Shown here piece after piece: positions 1,672-8,714 of a stretch of 9,394 nucleotides of DNA; position 1 is the first letter of the stretch; each line of letters opens with the position of its first letter. Source of the stretch: Pseudomonadota bacterium (GTDB lineage: Bacteria; CALINM01); assembly GCA_026415985.1 (NCBI GenBank), contig JAOAGA010000065.1:1-9394 (forward strand), given 5' to 3'. A program made the position numbers and the translations under genes. The notes beneath the pieces were generated by a model that saw only the letters and a list, made by a program, of their open reading frames with translations, searched no databases and was not told the origin of the DNA.

Positions 1672-2116
1672 TCTCTTTTTGGTTTAAAAGAGATTTTAAG
1701 CAAGAAAAGTCGATCAACTTTCTCAAATGATTAAACTCATTCTTTTCAGTTAATAAATTAATATGTTTTATTGCATGTGATAATACGTCTACCTCATTAA
1801 TTTTTTTAGGTCTTGGCTTTAAGGGTGTGCTTTCAGCTGGTTCCTTTAAATTTTCTAATTCGCGAATGAAATTAAGATTTTTTATCTTCCCCTCAAATTT
1901 GCATAAAGCAATATAAGTAAGGGTCAAGGTAGTATCTTCTTCGTATCTCCAGCTTGTAGAATGGATAAGATATGGGGTAAATTCAAACTTTTCAACCTCT
2001 CTTAAAACAATAAGGTCAGGGTCTTCATTCATTTTTTCAAGGAAAAGTCTTTCCTTGAAATAAAGGACTTTGCCTTGTTCGTTTATGAAGGTAAAGAAAA
2101 TCTCTAAATTAATCAT
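1652..2116 (-). CDS. Conserved-looking hypothetical protein, last gene of the uptake operon
   Basis: A 154-residue soluble protein with no signal peptide or membrane segment; I cannot assign a function. The N-terminal half alternates short hydrophobic and charged stretches, as in a beta-rich domain. It carries a striking HSTSWRYEEDTTLTLTYIAL segment (about 52-71). A polar, proline-containing linker follows (about 90-107: EPAESTPLKPRPKK), then a helical C-terminal part with DVLSHAIKHINLL (110-122). The invariant-looking His-Ser-Thr-Ser-Trp-Arg and His-Ala-Ile-x-His elements remind me of uncharacterised bacterial proteins, but I cannot name a family. The ATG overlaps the TGA of the ATPase gene (ATGA), so it is co-translated with the transporter and may work with it, for example on the imported ligand in the cytoplasm. 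That role is inference from position only. Confidence 0.8.
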   Translation of the reverse strand: MINLEIFFTFINEQGKVLYFKERLFLEKMNEDPDLIVLREVEKFEFTPYLIHSTSWRYEEDTTLTLTYIALCKFEGKIKNLNFIRELENLKEPAESTPLKPRPKKINEVDVLSHAIKHINLLTEKNEFNHLRKLIDFSCLKSLLNQKEISGRLL

Positions 2117-2859
2117 ACCTTGAGAACAATATATTTATTTTCGTCAAAAATTATCTTGAAGCTTACATTAAATATTTTTTCGAGAAAGTCTATATCTATA
2201 TCATCTTTTTCTTTTTTTATAATTTCACCATCTTTTAAAAAATATAAATCATCACAATAAAGGTAAGCTATTGATACCTCGTGTAATACAGTAATAATAC
2301 TTTTACCTTCTTTAACAAGGTCTTTCAGTATTTTTATGATATGAATCTGATTATGAAGATCAAGGTTAGTAAGTGGCTCATCAAGAATTATTATATCTGG
2401 ATTTTGTGCTATCAACCTTGATAAAAGAACAAGCTTTTGTTCTCCACCGGATAGTTCGGTATACCTTCTGTCTTTAAAATGTTCGATATTTAGTTTTTGC
2501 AAGGCTGAAACAGATATATCTATGTCTTTTTTTGTTGGATAAAAGCTGAAATAGGGCATTCTTCCCGTCAAAACAACATCTAAAACCTTATAAGGATAGA
2601 TAGGATAGTGAATTTGAGGAAGGTATCCCACAAGTTTTGAAAAATCTTTCATTGAAAAAGATTCGGCAATTTTTTGGTGAAATCTTACCTCACCTTTATA
2701 GGATCTTTCAAAACGTGCAATAATTTTGATGAGGGTAGATTTACCACTTCCATTTTTACCTAAAATACCTATAAATCTTCCTTTTTCAAAAAAACAATTT
2801 AAATCATTGAAAATTAGTCTATCACCATAGGAAAACTGTAATTTCTCAACGCTTATCAT
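2113..2859 (-). CDS. ABC transporter ATP-binding protein, iron/cobalamin uptake type (FepC/BtuD-like)
   Basis: The 248-residue ATPase drives import through the adjacent FecCD permease. All nucleotide-binding elements are present: Walker A GKNGSGKST (34-42), Q-loop Gln82 (LPQ), signature LSGGE (136-140), Walker B IIILDEP with Asp160-Glu161, D-loop NLDLHNQ (165-171) and switch His193. The length is normal for the FepC/FhuC/BtuD group. I take the start at ATG 2859 (MISVEKLQFSYG). It lies one base after the permease TGA, has AAGG about 7 nt upstream and fits the family N-terminus. The open frame extends to an ATG at 2922, but that would overlap the permease by 62 bases with unrelated residues. 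The stop overlaps the start of the next gene. The protein acts as a dimer on the cytoplasmic face. The family is certain; the substrate is not visible from the ATPase. Confidence 0.95.
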   Translation of the reverse strand: MISVEKLQFSYGDRLIFNDLNCFFEKGRFIGILGKNGSGKSTLIKIIARFERSYKGEVRFHQKIAESFSMKDFSKLVGYLPQIHYPIYPYKVLDVVLTGRMPYFSFYPTKKDIDISVSALQKLNIEHFKDRRYTELSGGEQKLVLLSRLIAQNPDIIILDEPLTNLDLHNQIHIIKILKDLVKEGKSIITVLHEVSIAYLYCDDLYFLKDGEIIKKEKDDIDIDFLEKIFNVSFKIIFDENKYIVLKV

Positions 2860-2860
2860 C

Positions 2861-3859
2861 TCAAAACCTTGTAAGATTATCGAATTTTGTTTTAATAACA
2901 TAAATGAAAAAAGGCGTTCCAAGCATGGTTGTAAAAACGCCTACCGGGAGCTCGAAATCAAAGACACTCCTTGAAAAAGAATCAACAACTACAAGAAAAT
3001 TACCACCCAAAAAAAAGCTAAAAGGTATACATACTCTGTTATCGGGGCCCACAATCATTTTGACAAGATGAGGGATAATTAAACCTATCATTCCAATAAT
3101 ACCAGCAACCGATATAGCAGTTGTAGCAATAAGTCCTGCTGGTATTAAGATTAATGCCTTTTCTGTGTCAGGATCCAAACCTACCGATCTGGCTTCATCC
3201 TCTCCTAATGCCATTACATTCATTCTAAAACTAAAAAGCAAAAGCCAAAAAAAACATATTAAGATTATTACATAGATTTTTTCCAATTTTTCTAAGTTTG
3301 CGGTATGTAAATTACCCATCAACCAGTGGATGATAGACTGTAACTTAAAGGGGTCAACTATAAACTGAAGAACAGTAAGAAGAGAAGTAAAAAAACCTGA
3401 AACTATGACACCTGCCAGAATGAAGCTTGAATTTGAAGGTTTGCTTCCAATTTTGGCAATAAAATAGGTAAGAAAAACAGCGATAAGACCAAAAAAGAAG
3501 GCGGTTAATTGTAATGGTAAAAATGGAAATGAAACAGCAAGAGCAGCACCAAAGGCTGAACCTGATGATAGTCCTATAACATCCGGAGACACAAGAGGGT
3601 TTCTAAAAATTGATTGCAATGTCATTCCTGATACGGAAAGCGAAGCACCTACAAGAAAAGATATAATTACCCTCGGCAGACGAACTTCAAGTATTATATT
3701 TCTGATTAATTGAAAATCGTTGTCATATACATTTTTAAAGATAAAGATATTAATTATTCTCTCTAAAGTAACCATCTTTGATGGTCCAGAAGCTATAGCT
3801 ATTAAAAAAATTACCATAGATAAAACAACGGAAAAGAAAAATAAAGAACCATTCTTCAT
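2861..3859 (-). CDS. FecCD/BtuC-type ABC transporter permease
   Basis: A 332-residue inner-membrane protein with about ten hydrophobic segments, the normal size for FecCD permeases. Family marks in order: RLPR (60-63) before the second helix, GASLSVSGMTLQSIFRNPLVSPD (71-93) with the NPL and SPD core, and GLSSGSAFGAALA (96-108). Then come the cytoplasmic coupling loop ALGEDEARSVGLD (217-229), which contacts the ATPase, PVGVFTTMLGTPFF (305-318) and a short basic tail. A single permease gene implies a homodimer, as in BtuC and HmuU. The ATG directly follows the TAG of the binding-protein gene with no spacer, and AGGAAAG lies 8 nt upstream. It moves the ligand delivered by the periplasmic binding protein into the cytoplasm. 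Members carry ferric siderophores, haem, cobalamin or other metal chelates; sequence alone does not choose. Confidence 0.95.
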   Translation of the reverse strand: MKNGSLFFFSVVLSMVIFLIAIASGPSKMVTLERIINIFIFKNVYDNDFQLIRNIILEVRLPRVIISFLVGASLSVSGMTLQSIFRNPLVSPDVIGLSSGSAFGAALAVSFPFLPLQLTAFFFGLIAVFLTYFIAKIGSKPSNSSFILAGVIVSGFFTSLLTVLQFIVDPFKLQSIIHWLMGNLHTANLEKLEKIYVIILICFFWLLLFSFRMNVMALGEDEARSVGLDPDTEKALILIPAGLIATTAISVAGIIGMIGLIIPHLVKMIVGPDNRVCIPFSFFLGGNFLVVVDSFSRSVFDFELPVGVFTTMLGTPFFIYVIKTKFDNLTRF

Positions 3860-4831
3860 CTAAATATCTTTCCTGTAGAAATCTCTCATTATTCTCTTGG
3901 CTTCGTTGTTTAAATCTATTTTAAACCTTTCAGGATAAATATATTTGGACATAGCTTTTATGGCATATATGAATTTCAGCGTCCACATATCATAATAGAA
4001 AATATTTTTATATTCATAAACTTCTTTATTTTTAACTGCCCTTATTCCTTTAAGAAGTGGCTCATTTATAATATCATTGGGATCTTTTTTTTCATTAAAC
4101 CACATAATAATAACATCGGGGTCCCACTCTTTCAGCTTTTCTACATTTATAACTACATGTTCTTTATATATTTCTTTACAGACATTAACTCCACCAGCGA
4201 TCTCAATTAGCTCGTTTACAATACTATCACCGCAAGAAGTGTTAAAGATACTCTGAGCCCACATAAAATATACTTTTTTTCTTTTATCAATTTTTGAAGT
4301 ATCTTTTTTAATTTTAGCTATTTCTTTACTTGTCTTATCAATAAGTTCTTTTGCTATTTTCTCCTTTCCAAATATCTTACCGAAGTCTTCAATTTCTTTG
4401 TATACATCATCAATCTTCTTTATAAAAACTCCATAAACCGGAATATTGTATTTTTCAATATTTTCTATTAATTCTTTTTGTTCACTCCATACAATAACAA
4501 TGTCTGGTTTTAAGGCAATTATGCTTTCTAAGTTTCCAAAATCCCAATTGCCCGGTGCAGGAATTTTTTTATTTTTAATTCTCTCATCGAGCACAGAATA
4601 CTGTGAGAAAACGTCTCCGCTATAAATATTAGTTGATATTCCGACAATTGTATCCTGAGCACCAATCATATAAATACCAGTCAAGGCACTTTCTATTAAA
4701 CAGACAACTCTTTGAGCAGGTTTATTCATGGTAATTTTTTTGCCTCTAAAGTCAGTTACTTCTATTTTTTTTGAATGGGACTCATTTGCATATAAAATTG
4801 TAAGAAAAATGAACAAAAAAATTTTTTTCAT
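3860..4831 (-). CDS. Periplasmic substrate-binding protein, class III (BtuF/FepB-like)
   Basis: A 323-residue periplasmic binding protein. A signal peptide covers about residues 1-20 (MKKIFLFIFLTILYANESHS); no lipobox cysteine is seen, so it is likely soluble. The N-lobe begins EVTDFRGKKITMNKPAQRVV (about 24-43), the classic start of the PF01497 group, followed by NLESIIALKPDIVIVW (100-115). A long charged helix linking the lobes runs about 140-185. The C-lobe includes EKLKEWDPDVIIMW (231-244). The C-terminus, with Asp-Met-Trp at 281-283 and YIYPERF (297-303), resembles family members linked to metal or corrinoid uptake rather than enterobacterial FepB, a weak impression. GGAG lies 5 nt before ATG. 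The gene follows the receptor by 80 bp containing a stem-loop and abuts the permease. It captures the ligand in the periplasm. Confidence 0.93.
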   Translation of the reverse strand: MKKIFLFIFLTILYANESHSKKIEVTDFRGKKITMNKPAQRVVCLIESALTGIYMIGAQDTIVGISTNIYSGDVFSQYSVLDERIKNKKIPAPGNWDFGNLESIIALKPDIVIVWSEQKELIENIEKYNIPVYGVFIKKIDDVYKEIEDFGKIFGKEKIAKELIDKTSKEIAKIKKDTSKIDKRKKVYFMWAQSIFNTSCGDSIVNELIEIAGGVNVCKEIYKEHVVINVEKLKEWDPDVIIMWFNEKKDPNDIINEPLLKGIRAVKNKEVYEYKNIFYYDMWTLKFIYAIKAMSKYIYPERFKIDLNNEAKRIMRDFYRKDI

Positions 4832-4850
4832 AGTCTCTCCAAAAAATTGT

Positions 4851-4876
4851 GGCTCAGAGAATAAACTCTCTGAGCC
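4851..4876 (-). terminator. 10-bp stem-loop between receptor and binding-protein genes, attenuator or processing site
   Basis: GGCTCAGAGA (4851-4860) and TCTCTGAGCC (4867-4876) form a perfect 10-bp stem with a 6-nt loop. On the minus strand it is followed by ACAA and six T's, ending 10 nt before the ATG of the binding-protein gene. This fits a leaky intrinsic terminator that gives more receptor than transporter, or an RNA stem that protects the receptor mRNA 3' end. On the plus strand no T-run follows, so it belongs to the minus-strand operon. Confidence 0.65.
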
Positions 4877-4911
4877 TATATAAGAAGAGGGATTAGATGT
4901 ATATATTAAAT

Positions 4912-6930
4912 TTAAAATTTGACAGACAGAGCTCCTTTTACGTTAAATCCGGGATCCTGAAATTGCCATGGCATCTCATATTTCCTGTTAAATAAGTTAT
5001 TAATATCAAAAGCTAAATCTACAGAGTAATCTTTATTTCTTGTTAGTTCTTTAGATATATTTATGTTAACATACTCATAACTGCCAAACTCTCTCCTTGA
5101 GCTTTTATCAGTGCTATCGTAGTATTTACCAACAAAAGTTGCATAGGGAGAAAAACTTATTTCGAATGGCAATTTAGCATTAAAACCTAAATTTGCAGTA
5201 TAATCAGGAACAAAAGTTATATCAGAGTTATCAAAATTTATATTGAAGGGATTATTTACCTTAGTATTAATTAGAGTCAGATTTCCAAACCATGCAAAAT
5301 TATTAGTAAACTGGTTTTTAATCTCTAACTCTAAACCAACTGATTTAGATTTACCTGCATTTTCAGAGCGACTCTGAGAAGGCGATAAAGAAACAACATT
5401 TTCAACAATCGCATCATCAACTATAGTATAAAATCCTCTCAGAGACATATAAAACTTATCAAAAAATGCTTCCAATCCCACATCGTAAGAGTAACCTGAT
5501 TCGGGTTTTAAGTTTGGATTGGGAAGCTGACCACTATTAGGAGAACCAGAGGGAATTGTTCCGCCAACCTGTTTTGCGGAAGGTGGGGTAAAACTCATTC
5601 CTGCGTTAGCAAAAACAGATATATTATTAGTTGCACTATATCTCAAACCACCGCTTAAAAGTATTTTATTCCAATCTTTTTCTTTTAAAGGGGGGACAAC
5701 ACCGGAAATCAACTCATAATCACTTTCTATTTTATTTAATCTACCACCTAATCTTAAGGTAAGTTTGTTCAAAACTAACTTTTCCTGTAAATATAAACCG
5801 TAAGAAGATGTTTTTGAATTATTTCCAATGCTTATGAGACCATTACTTTCAGTATATGTGTCATAATAAACTTTTTGATAGTCTACCCCGGCAATAAAAA
5901 TACTATTCCCAAAATGTTTGAGAGAGTATTGAAAATCGACGGGAATAATTTTTTGTCTTACCCCACCATGTTCTCTTAATTGTAACTCATTTGGGTCATT
6001 ATAAACATCTCCGTCGTAATCGTAAAAATCTTCTGCCCATCTTCTGTGATAATTTCTGTATCCTGCTTTAAGAATAATATTTGCGTTCTCACCCATATCC
6101 TTTTTGTAATCAAAGTTTACAGTATCGTAGTTATGGTTAAAGTCCCTATTAGGTCTACCAGCATCGCCAGTATGTTGAGTGTGATTTGCAAATATTGAAA
6201 AGCTATGTTTATCAGGCTTAAAAAAATATGTGAGTTTACCGTAAATCTTATTTTTTTGATATTGAGGATCATCTATCATTTTGAGCCAGGAATTATAAGT
6301 TCCGTAATTTGAATAATTGGATCTCTCATAGTCAGCTCCGAAGAAATAATTTAAATTACCCTTTCTGTTCTGATGATAAATGTTAGTAAAATTAGTATTC
6401 CAAGAACCTGTTCCTAATGTAATTTTTGAGAAATCTTTTTCAATTTTTTCCTTCATTATAAAATTTGTTACTCCTGCTAAGGGTGACTGACTACCTGCAA
6501 AATCTGCGGTAAGGTAGTTTGAATATTGAATTGAAGCAGGACCTCTAAATATTTCTACCCTGTCTACTCCAACTGCAGAAAGACTCATAGGATCAACCAT
6601 ATTATCTATAGGAACACCATCAAGTAAAAAAAGATTGTATTTAGGGCCTAATCCGCCAAAAGATCCCCAGTTAGCATCATTTCTTGATAGGGGGTTAATA
6701 AAAACACCGGGCTGAAAAGTTATTAATTCACTGAGATTATTATTTTTTAAAGAGATTTTATCTATTTCTTCTTTAGTCATAATATCCACTTTTTGGGTGA
6801 CATTAATCTCAGATTGTTCAATCTTTGCCTCCGTGACCACGATGTCTTCCAGTGCATAGTTTTTTTCAGAGCCAAAAGCATAAGAAACTGCTAAAAACAA
6901 AATCAGAAAACATAGATACAACCTTTTCAT
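4912..6930 (-). CDS. TonB-dependent outer-membrane receptor
   Basis: A 672-residue receptor with a signal peptide at about 1-20 (ending AFG). The TonB box is EDIVVTE (28-34). The plug domain runs to about 165 and shows LSELITFQPGVFI (67-79), LLDGVPIDN (102-110) and VDRVEIFRGPASIQYS (122-137), all standard plug motifs. The rest is a 22-strand barrel with alternating aromatic strands, a conserved NPNLKPESGYSYDVGLEAFF stretch in the second half, and NLFNRKYEMPW near the end. It closes with Phe672, the terminal aromatic used for outer-membrane insertion. AAGGAGG lies 6 nt before ATG. It would import a scarce ligand using TonB. The downstream class III binding protein and FecCD permease suggest a metal chelate, haem or corrinoid. 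I see no feature that fixes the ligand; a loop near 256-269 is rich in His, Asn and Asp. Confidence 0.95.
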   Translation of the reverse strand: MKRLYLCFLILFLAVSYAFGSEKNYALEDIVVTEAKIEQSEINVTQKVDIMTKEEIDKISLKNNNLSELITFQPGVFINPLSRNDANWGSFGGLGPKYNLFLLDGVPIDNMVDPMSLSAVGVDRVEIFRGPASIQYSNYLTADFAGSQSPLAGVTNFIMKEKIEKDFSKITLGTGSWNTNFTNIYHQNRKGNLNYFFGADYERSNYSNYGTYNSWLKMIDDPQYQKNKIYGKLTYFFKPDKHSFSIFANHTQHTGDAGRPNRDFNHNYDTVNFDYKKDMGENANIILKAGYRNYHRRWAEDFYDYDGDVYNDPNELQLREHGGVRQKIIPVDFQYSLKHFGNSIFIAGVDYQKVYYDTYTESNGLISIGNNSKTSSYGLYLQEKLVLNKLTLRLGGRLNKIESDYELISGVVPPLKEKDWNKILLSGGLRYSATNNISVFANAGMSFTPPSAKQVGGTIPSGSPNSGQLPNPNLKPESGYSYDVGLEAFFDKFYMSLRGFYTIVDDAIVENVVSLSPSQSRSENAGKSKSVGLELEIKNQFTNNFAWFGNLTLINTKVNNPFNINFDNSDITFVPDYTANLGFNAKLPFEISFSPYATFVGKYYDSTDKSSRREFGSYEYVNINISKELTRNKDYSVDLAFDINNLFNRKYEMPWQFQDPGFNVKGALSVKF

Positions 6931-6981: not shown

Positions 6982-6995
6982 CTGAAAACTTTCAG
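6982..6995. repeat. Short dyad at the methyltransferase stop codon
   Basis: CTGAAA-AC-TTTCAG is a perfect 6-bp dyad with a 2-nt centre, overlapping the TGA of the methyltransferase gene and 52 nt before the receptor start. The loop is too small for a good RNA hairpin. It may be a protein-binding dyad or chance. Confidence 0.2.
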
Positions 6996-7693
6996 AATTT
7001 CCTGTGAAAGATATAAATACCAAAAACATCAGAACTTTTATGCCAATAATGTCCATTTTCATAAATAAGATTCTTATAAATTTTCAGTTTTTCAAAACAA
7101 GAGATGGGCCTTTTTTCATAAAATTCCATATGTTCGTATGCTTCTTTAAGAGAGTGATATGCAAAGGAAGTATCGGCAGTAAAAACTCTAAAAAGTTTCA
7201 ACTCATAGTCTTTTTGGATTTTGATTCTATTATTTTGATTCTTTAATTCTGATACAATAAAAACATATCTCGCTTCCAATGAAAAAACCTTAGTCAAAGC
7301 TAACTCAAATGGGATATCCATTAGATGCAAACTATTACATGCAATTACTATGTCATAACCACGATATTCAAATGTTGGTATATCCTCCCACCTCCTTGTG
7401 TCAAAGTTTATGAAATCGATCTCCCTCTTAAAAATCTCTTGAAAAAGAAGGTTTCTCATGTTCAAAGAGGGTTCTATTATTGTTACGTCACACCCCACAG
7501 ATGACAAGGGAAGAGATAGGACACCATTTCCGCCACCAATATCAAGGACTCTAAAATTTGGTTCTATAATCTTAAATAAAAGTTCTAAGATCTGTTTATG
7601 AAAATGATTGTGTTCTATCCACAATTTATACCACTTTGCATAACTATTCCAGAAAGAAACTGAATTTGAAAGATATTCACATTTAAAATACAC
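6992..7693 (-). CDS. Class I SAM-dependent methyltransferase, linked to the uptake operon
   Basis: A 233-residue cytoplasmic protein with a Rossmann-type SAM-binding core. Motif I is VLDIGGGNG (49-57), the acidic residue at the end of strand 2 is Glu75 (TIIEPS), Asp98 lies in the motif II/III region (NFDTRRW), and the strand-4 motif is YDIVIACNSLHLMDI (113-127). The N-terminal 45 residues are aromatic-rich (FWNSYAKWYKLW) as in many type 11/12 methyltransferases that shield a small-molecule substrate. I chose the GTG at 7693: AGGAGG sits 5 nt upstream and no ATG fits. It lies 61 bp before the receptor on the same strand and is probably co-transcribed. The acceptor is unknown. A role in making, modifying or degrading the ligand carried by the receptor is inference from position. 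Confidence 0.87.
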   Translation of the reverse strand: MYFKCEYLSNSVSFWNSYAKWYKLWIEHNHFHKQILELLFKIIEPNFRVLDIGGGNGVLSLPLSSVGCDVTIIEPSLNMRNLLFQEIFKREIDFINFDTRRWEDIPTFEYRGYDIVIACNSLHLMDIPFELALTKVFSLEARYVFIVSELKNQNNRIKIQKDYELKLFRVFTADTSFAYHSLKEAYEHMEFYEKRPISCFEKLKIYKNLIYENGHYWHKSSDVFGIYIFHRKF

Positions 7694-7730
7694 GAAAACC
7701 TCCTGATTGAACTTCCTTCAGGAAAGATTT

Positions 7731-7745
7731 ACATCTTCGTGATGT
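7731..7745 (-). repeat. Leader hairpin of the methyltransferase gene with ACGAA loop
   Basis: On the minus strand ACATC-ACGAA-GATGT is a perfect 5-bp stem, 38 nt before the GTG start. A matching hairpin with the same loop and a changed stem pair is in the tonB leader (8628-8640). On the plus strand the loop reads TTCGT, and a run of five T's follows after 5 nt. Confidence 0.45.
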
Positions 7746-7782: not shown

Positions 7783-7800
7783 TGATGCATTCGTGCATCA
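7783..7800. repeat. Perfect 7-bp palindrome at the predicted transcription start; plus-strand terminator shape
   Basis: TGATGCA-TTCG-TGCATCA is a perfect 7-bp stem with a UUCG-type loop. On the plus strand it is followed by A and eight T's (7802-7809), the form of an intrinsic terminator, yet no plus-strand gene precedes it. On the minus strand it begins within a few nt of the predicted start of the methyltransferase transcript, where it could be an operator or a 5'-terminal stem. Which use is real cannot be decided from sequence. Confidence 0.55.
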
Positions 7801-7812
7801 ATTTTTTTTATC

Positions 7813-7840
7813 ATTATAACAAAAAATTAATCCCTGTCAA
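7813..7840 (-). promoter_or_regulatory. Consensus sigma-70 promoter for the methyltransferase/receptor operon
   Basis: On the minus strand TTGACA (7840-7835) and TATAAT (7818-7813) match the consensus at all twelve positions, with a 16-nt spacer. The predicted start is near 7806, giving a leader of about 110 nt before the GTG. The overlapping stretch TATAATGATAAA resembles two Fur-type hexamers, but this is weak in such AT-rich DNA. A fully consensus promoter suggests strong expression that is held back by a regulator or by the leader. Confidence 0.7.
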
Positions 7841-7855
7841 TTTTTTTTTGAAATC

Positions 7856-8602
7856 TTATCTTTTTTCTGAATCTAAATTAAACCTGATAGTAAGTAATGC
7901 TTTAGATAATATTGGTTTTCCATTAATTTTTGCAGGACTAAAAGTTGATTTTCTGACTGCTTCCACAGCAGACTCTGTCATACCATATCCCGCTGATTCT
8001 ATAACTTCAGTTTCTAAGAGATTACCATGTTCATCTATGGTTAATCTCAAAACAACTACCCCCTGAATCCCTAATTTTTTAGCCAGAAGCGGATAAATTG
8101 GTAACACTTTTTTTAAAAATTTGGGAGCATTATCTCTACCTATGATGAGATCCTCTGTTGCTTTGCTGTCAAAGGTCTTATGTCCATCAAGCATATTACT
8201 TGAATTTGTTTTTTTCTCGATTATATTTTCTTCTTTATTGTAGGTATCATTTTTGAGATTATCTACAAATCTTTGAACCAGATTTTGTTCTGAACTTTCC
8301 TGTCTCAAACTAATTTCTTCGGTTATTACCTCTTCTATATTATTTTTTACCTCAATATTTGTGTCATCTGACAACAAATGTTTCTCATCTTTTGCTCTAT
8401 TTATTGTTTTTGAGTTATTTCTTAAAGTAAGTTTTTTATAAGAAGAATTTACTGGTTTAGTAATATCAACGATAATAAAATCATTAGCAACTTGAATTTT
8501 AGGAATGCTTCTATATGTTGGTAACAAAAATAAAAAAAGATGAAAACACAATGAAATTGTTAGTGAAAAAATTTTTTCTCTATTCATAAAATATTTTTTC
8601 AT
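7856..8602 (-). CDS. tonB: TonB energy-transducing protein
   Basis: A 248-residue inner-membrane protein that couples the proton motive force to outer-membrane receptors. A short basic N-terminus is followed by one membrane helix (about 11-29) containing SLCFH, the Ser-x-x-x-His motif (Ser17, His21) needed in known TonB proteins for contact with ExbB/ExbD. The periplasmic linker (about 30-158) is rich in Asn, Glu, Lys and Ser and has almost no proline, unlike the usual Pro-rich spacer. The C-terminal domain (about 160-245) has LPIYPLLAKKLGIQGVVVLRL, HGNLLE and FSPAKINGKPI, clear PF03544 marks. The start at 8602 has no visible ribosome site; Met6 is an alternative. It lies upstream of the methyltransferase and receptor, so it is probably the dedicated TonB of this uptake system. 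No exbB or exbD is present here. Confidence 0.93.
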   Translation of the reverse strand: MKKYFMNREKIFSLTISLCFHLFLFLLPTYRSIPKIQVANDFIIVDITKPVNSSYKKLTLRNNSKTINRAKDEKHLLSDDTNIEVKNNIEEVITEEISLRQESSEQNLVQRFVDNLKNDTYNKEENIIEKKTNSSNMLDGHKTFDSKATEDLIIGRDNAPKFLKKVLPIYPLLAKKLGIQGVVVLRLTIDEHGNLLETEVIESAGYGMTESAVEAVRKSTFSPAKINGKPILSKALLTIRFNLDSEKR

Positions 8603-8627: not shown

Positions 8628-8640
8628 CACCTTCGTGGTG
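8628..8640 (-). repeat. Leader hairpin of tonB with ACGAA loop
   Basis: On the minus strand CACC-ACGAA-GGTG forms a 4-bp stem with the same pentaloop as the methyltransferase leader hairpin, 25 nt before the tonB ATG. The third stem pair is C-G here and T-A there. On the plus strand the loop is TTCGT, followed after two G's by five T's. Confidence 0.45.
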
Positions 8641-8663: not shown

Positions 8664-8681
8664 ATGTATCTCCGGATACAT
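8664..8681. repeat. Perfect 7-bp palindrome at the predicted tonB transcription start
   Basis: ATGTATC-TCCG-GATACAT is a perfect 7-bp stem with a 4-nt centre. On the plus strand the loop is TCCG closed by C-G, the stable cUNCGg form; no T-run follows closely. On the minus strand it begins at about the predicted start of the tonB transcript, the same arrangement as 7783-7800 for the methyltransferase, though the stem sequence differs. Operator or 5' stem are both possible. Confidence 0.5.
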
Positions 8682-8685
8682 TTAA

Positions 8686-8714
8686 ATGTTAAAAAAAATA
8701 TTTATTTTTGTCAA
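8686..8714 (-). promoter_or_regulatory. Probable tonB promoter
   Basis: On the minus strand a perfect -35 TTGACA (8714-8709) is followed after 17 nt by TAACAT (8691-8686), a four-of-six -10 box. The predicted start is near 8679, giving a leader of about 77 nt. The spacer is almost pure A/T. Confidence 0.5.

Follow-up and report, generated by a model that had tools for sequence, protein, structure and literature searches.

Our analysis indicates that the leaders of two adjacent minus-strand genes in the window (the whole 9,394-nucleotide stretch analysed here) very probably belong to a family of cis-acting RNAs that controls nickel and cobalt uptake. In the full explanation, which we hold with moderate confidence, these leader RNAs would regulate the uptake of nickel, and possibly of cobalt, through a regulator that holds hairpins with NGRA loops.

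Leaders in the window

The initial annotation had described two hairpins with ACGAA loops lying 25-38 nt before the start codons of a methyltransferase gene and of tonB, in leaders that both open with a palindrome. Both hairpins can be read off the minus strand exactly as described. The one from 7745 to 7731 ends 37 nt short of the methyltransferase GTG (7693), and the one from 8640 to 8628 ends 25 nt short of the tonB ATG (8602). They differ at the second stem pair (T-A versus C-G), the compensatory change that had been claimed, and the palindromes are found at 7783-7800 and 8664-8681, each directly after a promoter. These palindromes are themselves hairpins with H2-like loops (CGAA and CGGA), a point that the earlier account had missed, along with a third hairpin of the methyltransferase leader beside AGGAGG. 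We number the hairpins H1 to H3 from the transcript start; the loops of all of them follow the rule (A)NGRA, usually closed by a C-G pair. The features are as follows.

7813-7840, minus strand: sigma-70 promoter of the methyltransferase operon, TTGACA-16-TATAAT with extended TG (12/12 consensus match)
7783-7800, minus strand: H1 of the methyltransferase leader, TGATGCA-CGAA-TGCATCA, at the predicted transcript start (NGRA hairpins upstream of H2 are enriched across leaders)
7731-7745, minus strand: H2 of the methyltransferase leader, ACATC-ACGAA-GATGT (covariation with relatives)
7712-7725, minus strand: H3 of the methyltransferase leader, TTTCC-TGAA-GGAAG (same hairpin in the relative G002)
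7691-7704, minus strand: AGGAGG and GTG start of the methyltransferase (minimum-energy fold)
6992-7693, minus strand: class I SAM methyltransferase (Pfam Methyltransf_23; 44 orthologues)
2113-6930, minus strand: TonB-dependent receptor, Peripla_BP_2 binding protein, FecCD permease and ABC ATPase, components of one and the same uptake system (Pfam; operon conserved in G002)
8686-8714, minus strand: sigma-70 promoter of tonB, TTGACA-17-TAACAT (10/12 match)
8664-8681, minus strand: H1 of the tonB leader, ATGTATC-CGGA-GATACAT, at the predicted transcript start (leader hairpin analysis)
8628-8640, minus strand: H2 of the tonB leader, CACC-ACGAA-GGTG (leader hairpin analysis)
7856-8602, minus strand: tonB (TonB_C, E 4.4e-18)

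Neither leader contains a terminator. In the methyltransferase leader CCTGA of H3 can alternatively pair with TCAGG beside AGGAGG, and H3 is thus predicted to be one that can expose or hide the ribosome-binding site. The TTCGTG over the start codon can pair with CACGAA of H2, giving an alternative state, and in the minimum-energy fold ACGAAGAU pairs with the region of the ribosome-binding site and start codon. The tonB leader has neither a clear H3 nor a fold that sequesters the ribosome-binding site. Elsewhere in the window, the uptake operon ends in a small protein (1652-2116) that is 38% identical in G002 and has no Pfam family, and three prepilin-like proteins with GFTLIE-type N-termini stand in a row on the minus strand at 200-1495.

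How much do two such hairpins say by themselves? As a bare motif ACGAA is not enriched in the window (10 observed versus 10.9 expected). Closed by a stem with four or more Watson-Crick pairs it occurs twice, against a mean of 0.08 in 1000 dinucleotide shuffles, 4 of which reach two or more such hairpins. We regard the two hairpins by themselves as weak evidence, and it is the comparative data that settle the matter.

Leaders of relatives

Only one other genome of the window's phylum, G002, has this operon. Its methyltransferase is 60% identical, and its leader reads GATGTC-AGAA-GACATC, CCACC-AAGAA-GGTG, CTTCC-TGAA-GGAA and GGGAGG, in the same order as in the window, with the stem sequences changed and the loops and order retained. 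After the uptake operon of G002 come an aldehyde ferredoxin oxidoreductase and a radical SAM/SPASM protein (L020:556-3583); the oxidoreductase suggested a molybdenum/tungsten system, a reading that was dropped on the CbiM, DUF4198 and NikR evidence given below.

Orthologues of the methyltransferase (n = 44) were found in genomes of Desulfobacterota type and Nitrospirota type, phylum labels that rest on the two loci at the centre of the searches, and most of their leaders carry the element. These leaders contain AAGCC-A[T/C]GAA-GGCT, usually a hairpin like CACC-AGAA-GGTG, then CTTC[A/G]TGGC, a T tract and the start codon. The usual form is that of a transcription attenuator, 5'-GCC-A[C/U]GAA-GGC ... 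CUUC[G/A]UGGC-UUUUUU, in which the 5' arm and loop of H2 (GCCAYGAAG) are complementary to CUUCRUGGC, so that H2 and the intrinsic terminator are mutually exclusive. In a second topology (loci L086-L096) GUGGUC-AUGAA-GGCCAC is kept and it is the 3' arm that enters the terminator, the H2 arm GGCCACAGUUU pairing with AAACUGUGGC; since this terminator is built from the 3' arm, the loop is conserved there without pairing. We take these two topologies, in both of which one small hairpin appears to compete, as strong evidence that H2 would act as an antiterminator. In four loci (L072-L074 and L076) the attenuator is followed by a second unit (e.g. GCC-ACGAA-GGU with CUUCC-ANGAA-GGAAG) directly before GGAGG, and it is this second, putatively translational unit that the window's methyltransferase leader matches. 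Most leader loops are ANGAA; H3 has other loops (AGCA, CGCC) in some leaders and is absent in L180 and L185.

Covariation supports the pairing in both folds. In a set of 36 attenuators, 95.7% of the terminator helix is paired, and the second base of the H2 loop faces the terminator arm as U-A in 19 sequences and as C-G in 17, with zero mismatches. H2 covaries in its own right as well: in a separate set of 30 hairpins with gap-free cores, the window and class B included, 89.3% of cells are paired. Shuffles give 78.8%, sliding the partner leaves no more than 50%, and four of the five pairs show changes on both sides. Because this set was picked by hand from the leaders and includes related sequences, its shuffle counts should not be read as probabilities. 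The 75 leader regions upstream of H2 contain 44 NGRA-loop hairpins, where 1.3 are expected and 200 shuffles reach at most 6. The stems of these hairpins have no sequence in common, and H1 is found in only 39 of the 75 regions. When three genomes were searched with the hairpin pattern by itself, matches were no more frequent than for a reversed control, from which we conclude that H2 is too short a query and that a longer model is needed. The initial annotation had named absence from relatives, or stem changes without compensation, as what would speak against a structured leader; the hairpin is present in the relatives and its stem changes are compensated.

Genes downstream of the element

The longer model, a covariance model that we call R1, was built from the methyltransferase leaders and two CbiM leaders. 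It matches in 107 of 295 Nitrospirota genomes (E up to 1e-3) and in 124 of 395 Desulfobacterota genomes (E up to 1e-4), and the genes that follow are for the most part CbiM/NikM, TonB, ExbB, TonB-receptor and DUF4198 genes. Directly downstream of 40 Nitrospirota sites lie 61 proteins, among them CbiM (14), PDGLE (10), TonB (8), DUF4198 (5), TonB receptor (4), ExbB (3) and CbiQ (2), and by our own reading nickel/cobalt or TonB-type uptake genes follow about 33 of the 40 sites. Methyltransferases and TonB receptors dominate downstream of the Desulfobacterota sites, with CbiM, DUF4198 and FecCD also present, a tally that is partly circular because some of these sites are in the training set of R1. 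The element is thus found before nickel/cobalt transport genes, which it is predicted to control, and the methyltransferase is a marker gene of nickel/cobalt uptake operons. The proposal that a structured leader RNA co-controls an uptake system has held up in the orthologous leaders, with their compensatory stem changes, and in a regulon of nickel/cobalt uptake. Large CobN/BchH-like proteins, named by eye, lie inside methyltransferase-TonB receptor operons at L102:10955-14962, L103:650-4642 and L056:4018-4776.

R1 is a terminator model, and its weak matches include unrelated terminators. The four weak matches in the window's phylum (C33, C95, C106 and C221) are other terminators: three precede a DAHP-synthase-like gene, and the match in C95 is followed by tRNA-like sequence, not by an uptake gene. 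All three genomes of the phylum carry a CCACAG...CTGTGG-TTTTTT leader before the DAHP-synthase-like gene (L204, L205 and L209, that is G001:C221, G002:C106 and G000:C33), which looks like a separate attenuator.

Could the family then have no sensing role, being only a conserved terminator or a processing hairpin, or could it be a global translational site of the CsrA type? Dimers of CsrA/RsmA bind repeated short hairpins with A-N-G-R-A loops near the ribosome-binding site, and a few of our loops, the ACGGA loops in the second elements of L055 and L059-L061, are exactly ANGGA. However, the great majority are ANGAA without a GGA core, and the elements are attenuators local to a single regulon, not global sites. 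A tblastn search with E. coli CsrA gave no match in the fetched loci, and a CsrA site was rejected since the loops are mostly GAA and no csrA lies near the loci. As for a terminator without sensing, the strong R1 matches cluster before nickel/cobalt uptake genes and exclude NikR (see below), and a terminator before every uptake operon would be sensible only if it were conditional. We consider this whole group of readings quite improbable.

NikR and the probable nickel signal

NikR (PF08753) is found in 144 of the 295 Nitrospirota genomes. The strong element (R1, E up to 2e-7) is found in 67, none of which has NikR, and none of the 144 NikR genomes has the strong element (Fisher P 3e-24, a value that ignores kinship, related genomes not being independent points). 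In the weak range of R1 (E 1e-6 to 1e-3) NikR and a match occur together in 13 genomes, and these matches may be ordinary terminators. The 30 genomes that encode the methyltransferase divide into 27 with the element but no NikR and 3 with NikR but no element. For two of these three, G513 and G535, the operons have GTGCTAC-N13-GTAGCAC and GTGTTAC-N14-GTAACAC upstream, with nikR about 0.4 kb away; these palindromes are the published NikR signal of delta-proteobacteria (PMC545781). Since genomes have the element or NikR but not both, with NikR operators where the element is missing, we conclude that the element appears to stand in for NikR. The two share the genes that they control and the predicted repression of uptake by nickel, and their distributions are mutually exclusive; they differ in that NikR binds DNA palindromes (GTGTTAC-N13/14-GTAACAC), whereas the element would act at the level of RNA and is found where NikR is absent. 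Because of the content of the regulon and the exclusion with NikR, we have good confidence that nickel would be the signal. CbiM-type transporters can carry cobalt.

Might the palindromes instead be DNA operators of a metal repressor, with the hairpins incidental? H1 lies at the transcript start, a possible operator position, and the orthologous operons of G513 and G535 do have NikR-type operators. Yet the stems of H1 and H2 are wholly different between leaders while the loop and the pairing persist, which is the opposite of a DNA palindrome read by a protein, and the odd 5-nt loops and the exclusivity with the terminator point to RNA. This reading was rejected on covariation, and we think it extremely improbable.

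If the hairpins of the window belong to the family, its genome should be without NikR, and other nickel genes in it should be preceded by the element. NikR was not found in any of the three genomes of the window's phylum, the window's own genome being 84% complete. After the promoter of the sole CbiM operon found in the window's genome stands AAGCCACGAAGGCTTAATATTTCAGATTTGAAAATCTGAAAATGCTTTCGTGGCTTTTTT, a full attenuator (E 6.9e-10). The stretch immediately before CbiM in G000 shows no element, since CbiM is the operon's second gene and the element stands before the first. The CbiM leader of G002 has GCC-ACGAA-GGC and TGCGAAA-AGAA-TTTCGCA, without a terminator.

Discussion

How could so small a hairpin control the expression of an operon? 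The median energy of the terminator state is -25.7 kcal/mol versus -13.8 kcal/mol for the H2 state, a gap of about 12 kcal/mol. Since the terminator is far more stable, the RNA left alone should terminate, and the genes can be expressed only if some other factor keeps H2 in place. Each leader has two to four small (A)NGRA-loop hairpins, H1 at the transcript start, then H2 (C-ANGRA-G) and often H3. In most relatives one arm of H2 doubles as a terminator strand; in the window the same hairpins adjoin the ribosome-binding site instead. We propose that, when nickel is scarce, a regulator would bind the NGRA loops and hold H2 (and H3), so that transcription or translation proceeds; when nickel is plentiful, the regulator would release them, and a terminator or a fold that sequesters the ribosome-binding site would switch uptake off.

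The regulator would be an RNA-binding antiterminator protein, active at low nickel. A protein is suggested by the large excess in stability of the terminator over the H2 state and by the recurrence of one loop in stems that are otherwise unrelated, and we find a protein sensor fairly probable, rather than a bare riboswitch. By analogy with ANTAR systems, repeated hairpins that share only the loop and closing pair would suit a dimeric or multivalent RNA-binding protein. ANTAR target RNAs (the eut, nas and ami leaders) have two hairpins with conserved loop residues, of which the second excludes an intrinsic terminator, and are bound by a dimeric protein (PMC3369931). Our element resembles them in that H2 shares its 5' arm and loop, or its 3' arm, with an intrinsic terminator, the two being mutually exclusive. 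It differs in its loops, which are of 4-5 nt, (A)NGRA and mostly C-G closed, whereas ANTAR loops are hexanucleotides with A1 and G4, and in its regulon, which is nickel/cobalt uptake rather than nitrogen or ethanolamine. A His/Glu-rich protein of about 66 aa (MDDLQKLKHLLRHWMEHNDEHAETYRNW...), with no convincing Pfam family, is encoded at L101:8766-8966 and in 14 other motif-bearing loci, which are nickel/cobalt transport loci; it could be a nickel chaperone or sensor, and we mention it as a lead only.

The family may alternatively be a true riboswitch, in which the loops themselves would bind nickel, cobalt or a nickel-bearing small molecule without any protein. The logic of the regulon and the mutually exclusive folds would fit equally well, and the surroundings of the loci yielded no candidate regulator gene. 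The guanidine-II riboswitch (mini-ykkC) is likewise built of tandem small hairpins, with short, conserved ACGR loops, and acts on terminators or ribosome-binding sites. However, with H2 of only 3-5 bp and a terminator stronger by about 12 kcal/mol, an off-switch needs an apo-RNA that favours a very weak fold; a larger conserved aptamer core was not seen, and identical loops in unrelated stems resemble protein sites. We consider a riboswitch unlikely, if by no means negligible, and continue to favour a protein that holds the hairpins.

The element differs from guanidine-II in its (A)NGRA loop, whose second base is variable (A, C or T), in its unrelated regulon and in having no Rfam match. The NiCo riboswitch (czcD motif) has a four-way-junction aptamer and is found mainly before efflux genes; like our element it is a cis-acting RNA tied to nickel/cobalt homeostasis, but the new element precedes uptake genes and does not match the NiCo model of Rfam. 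Rfam 15 as a whole gave no matching family and only noise (with E cut-offs of 10 for the window stretch and 3 for 12 relatives), in line with the initial annotation, which had recognised no known riboswitch class, and we found no description of the element in open-access papers. The annotation's further reading of a metal-responsive or protein-binding leader gains from the nickel/cobalt uptake regulon and from the exclusion of the terminator. Competition between hairpins is a known means of attenuation in general; the RNA family, its nickel regulon and its putative sensor would be new.

More generally, we think it probable that RNA attenuation, in the place of NikR, governs an entire nickel-homeostasis regulon across at least three phyla, through a metal-sensing antiterminator protein that would recognise the repeated (A)NGRA-loop hairpins, or else as the first class of nickel-uptake riboswitch. 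The family would account for the control of nickel uptake in a large part of the Nitrospirota and Desulfobacterota and in the window's lineage. The element also defines a regulon of poorly annotated genes, which includes the methyltransferase, DUF4198 proteins and CobN-like proteins, and it points to an undiscovered metal sensor acting on RNA.
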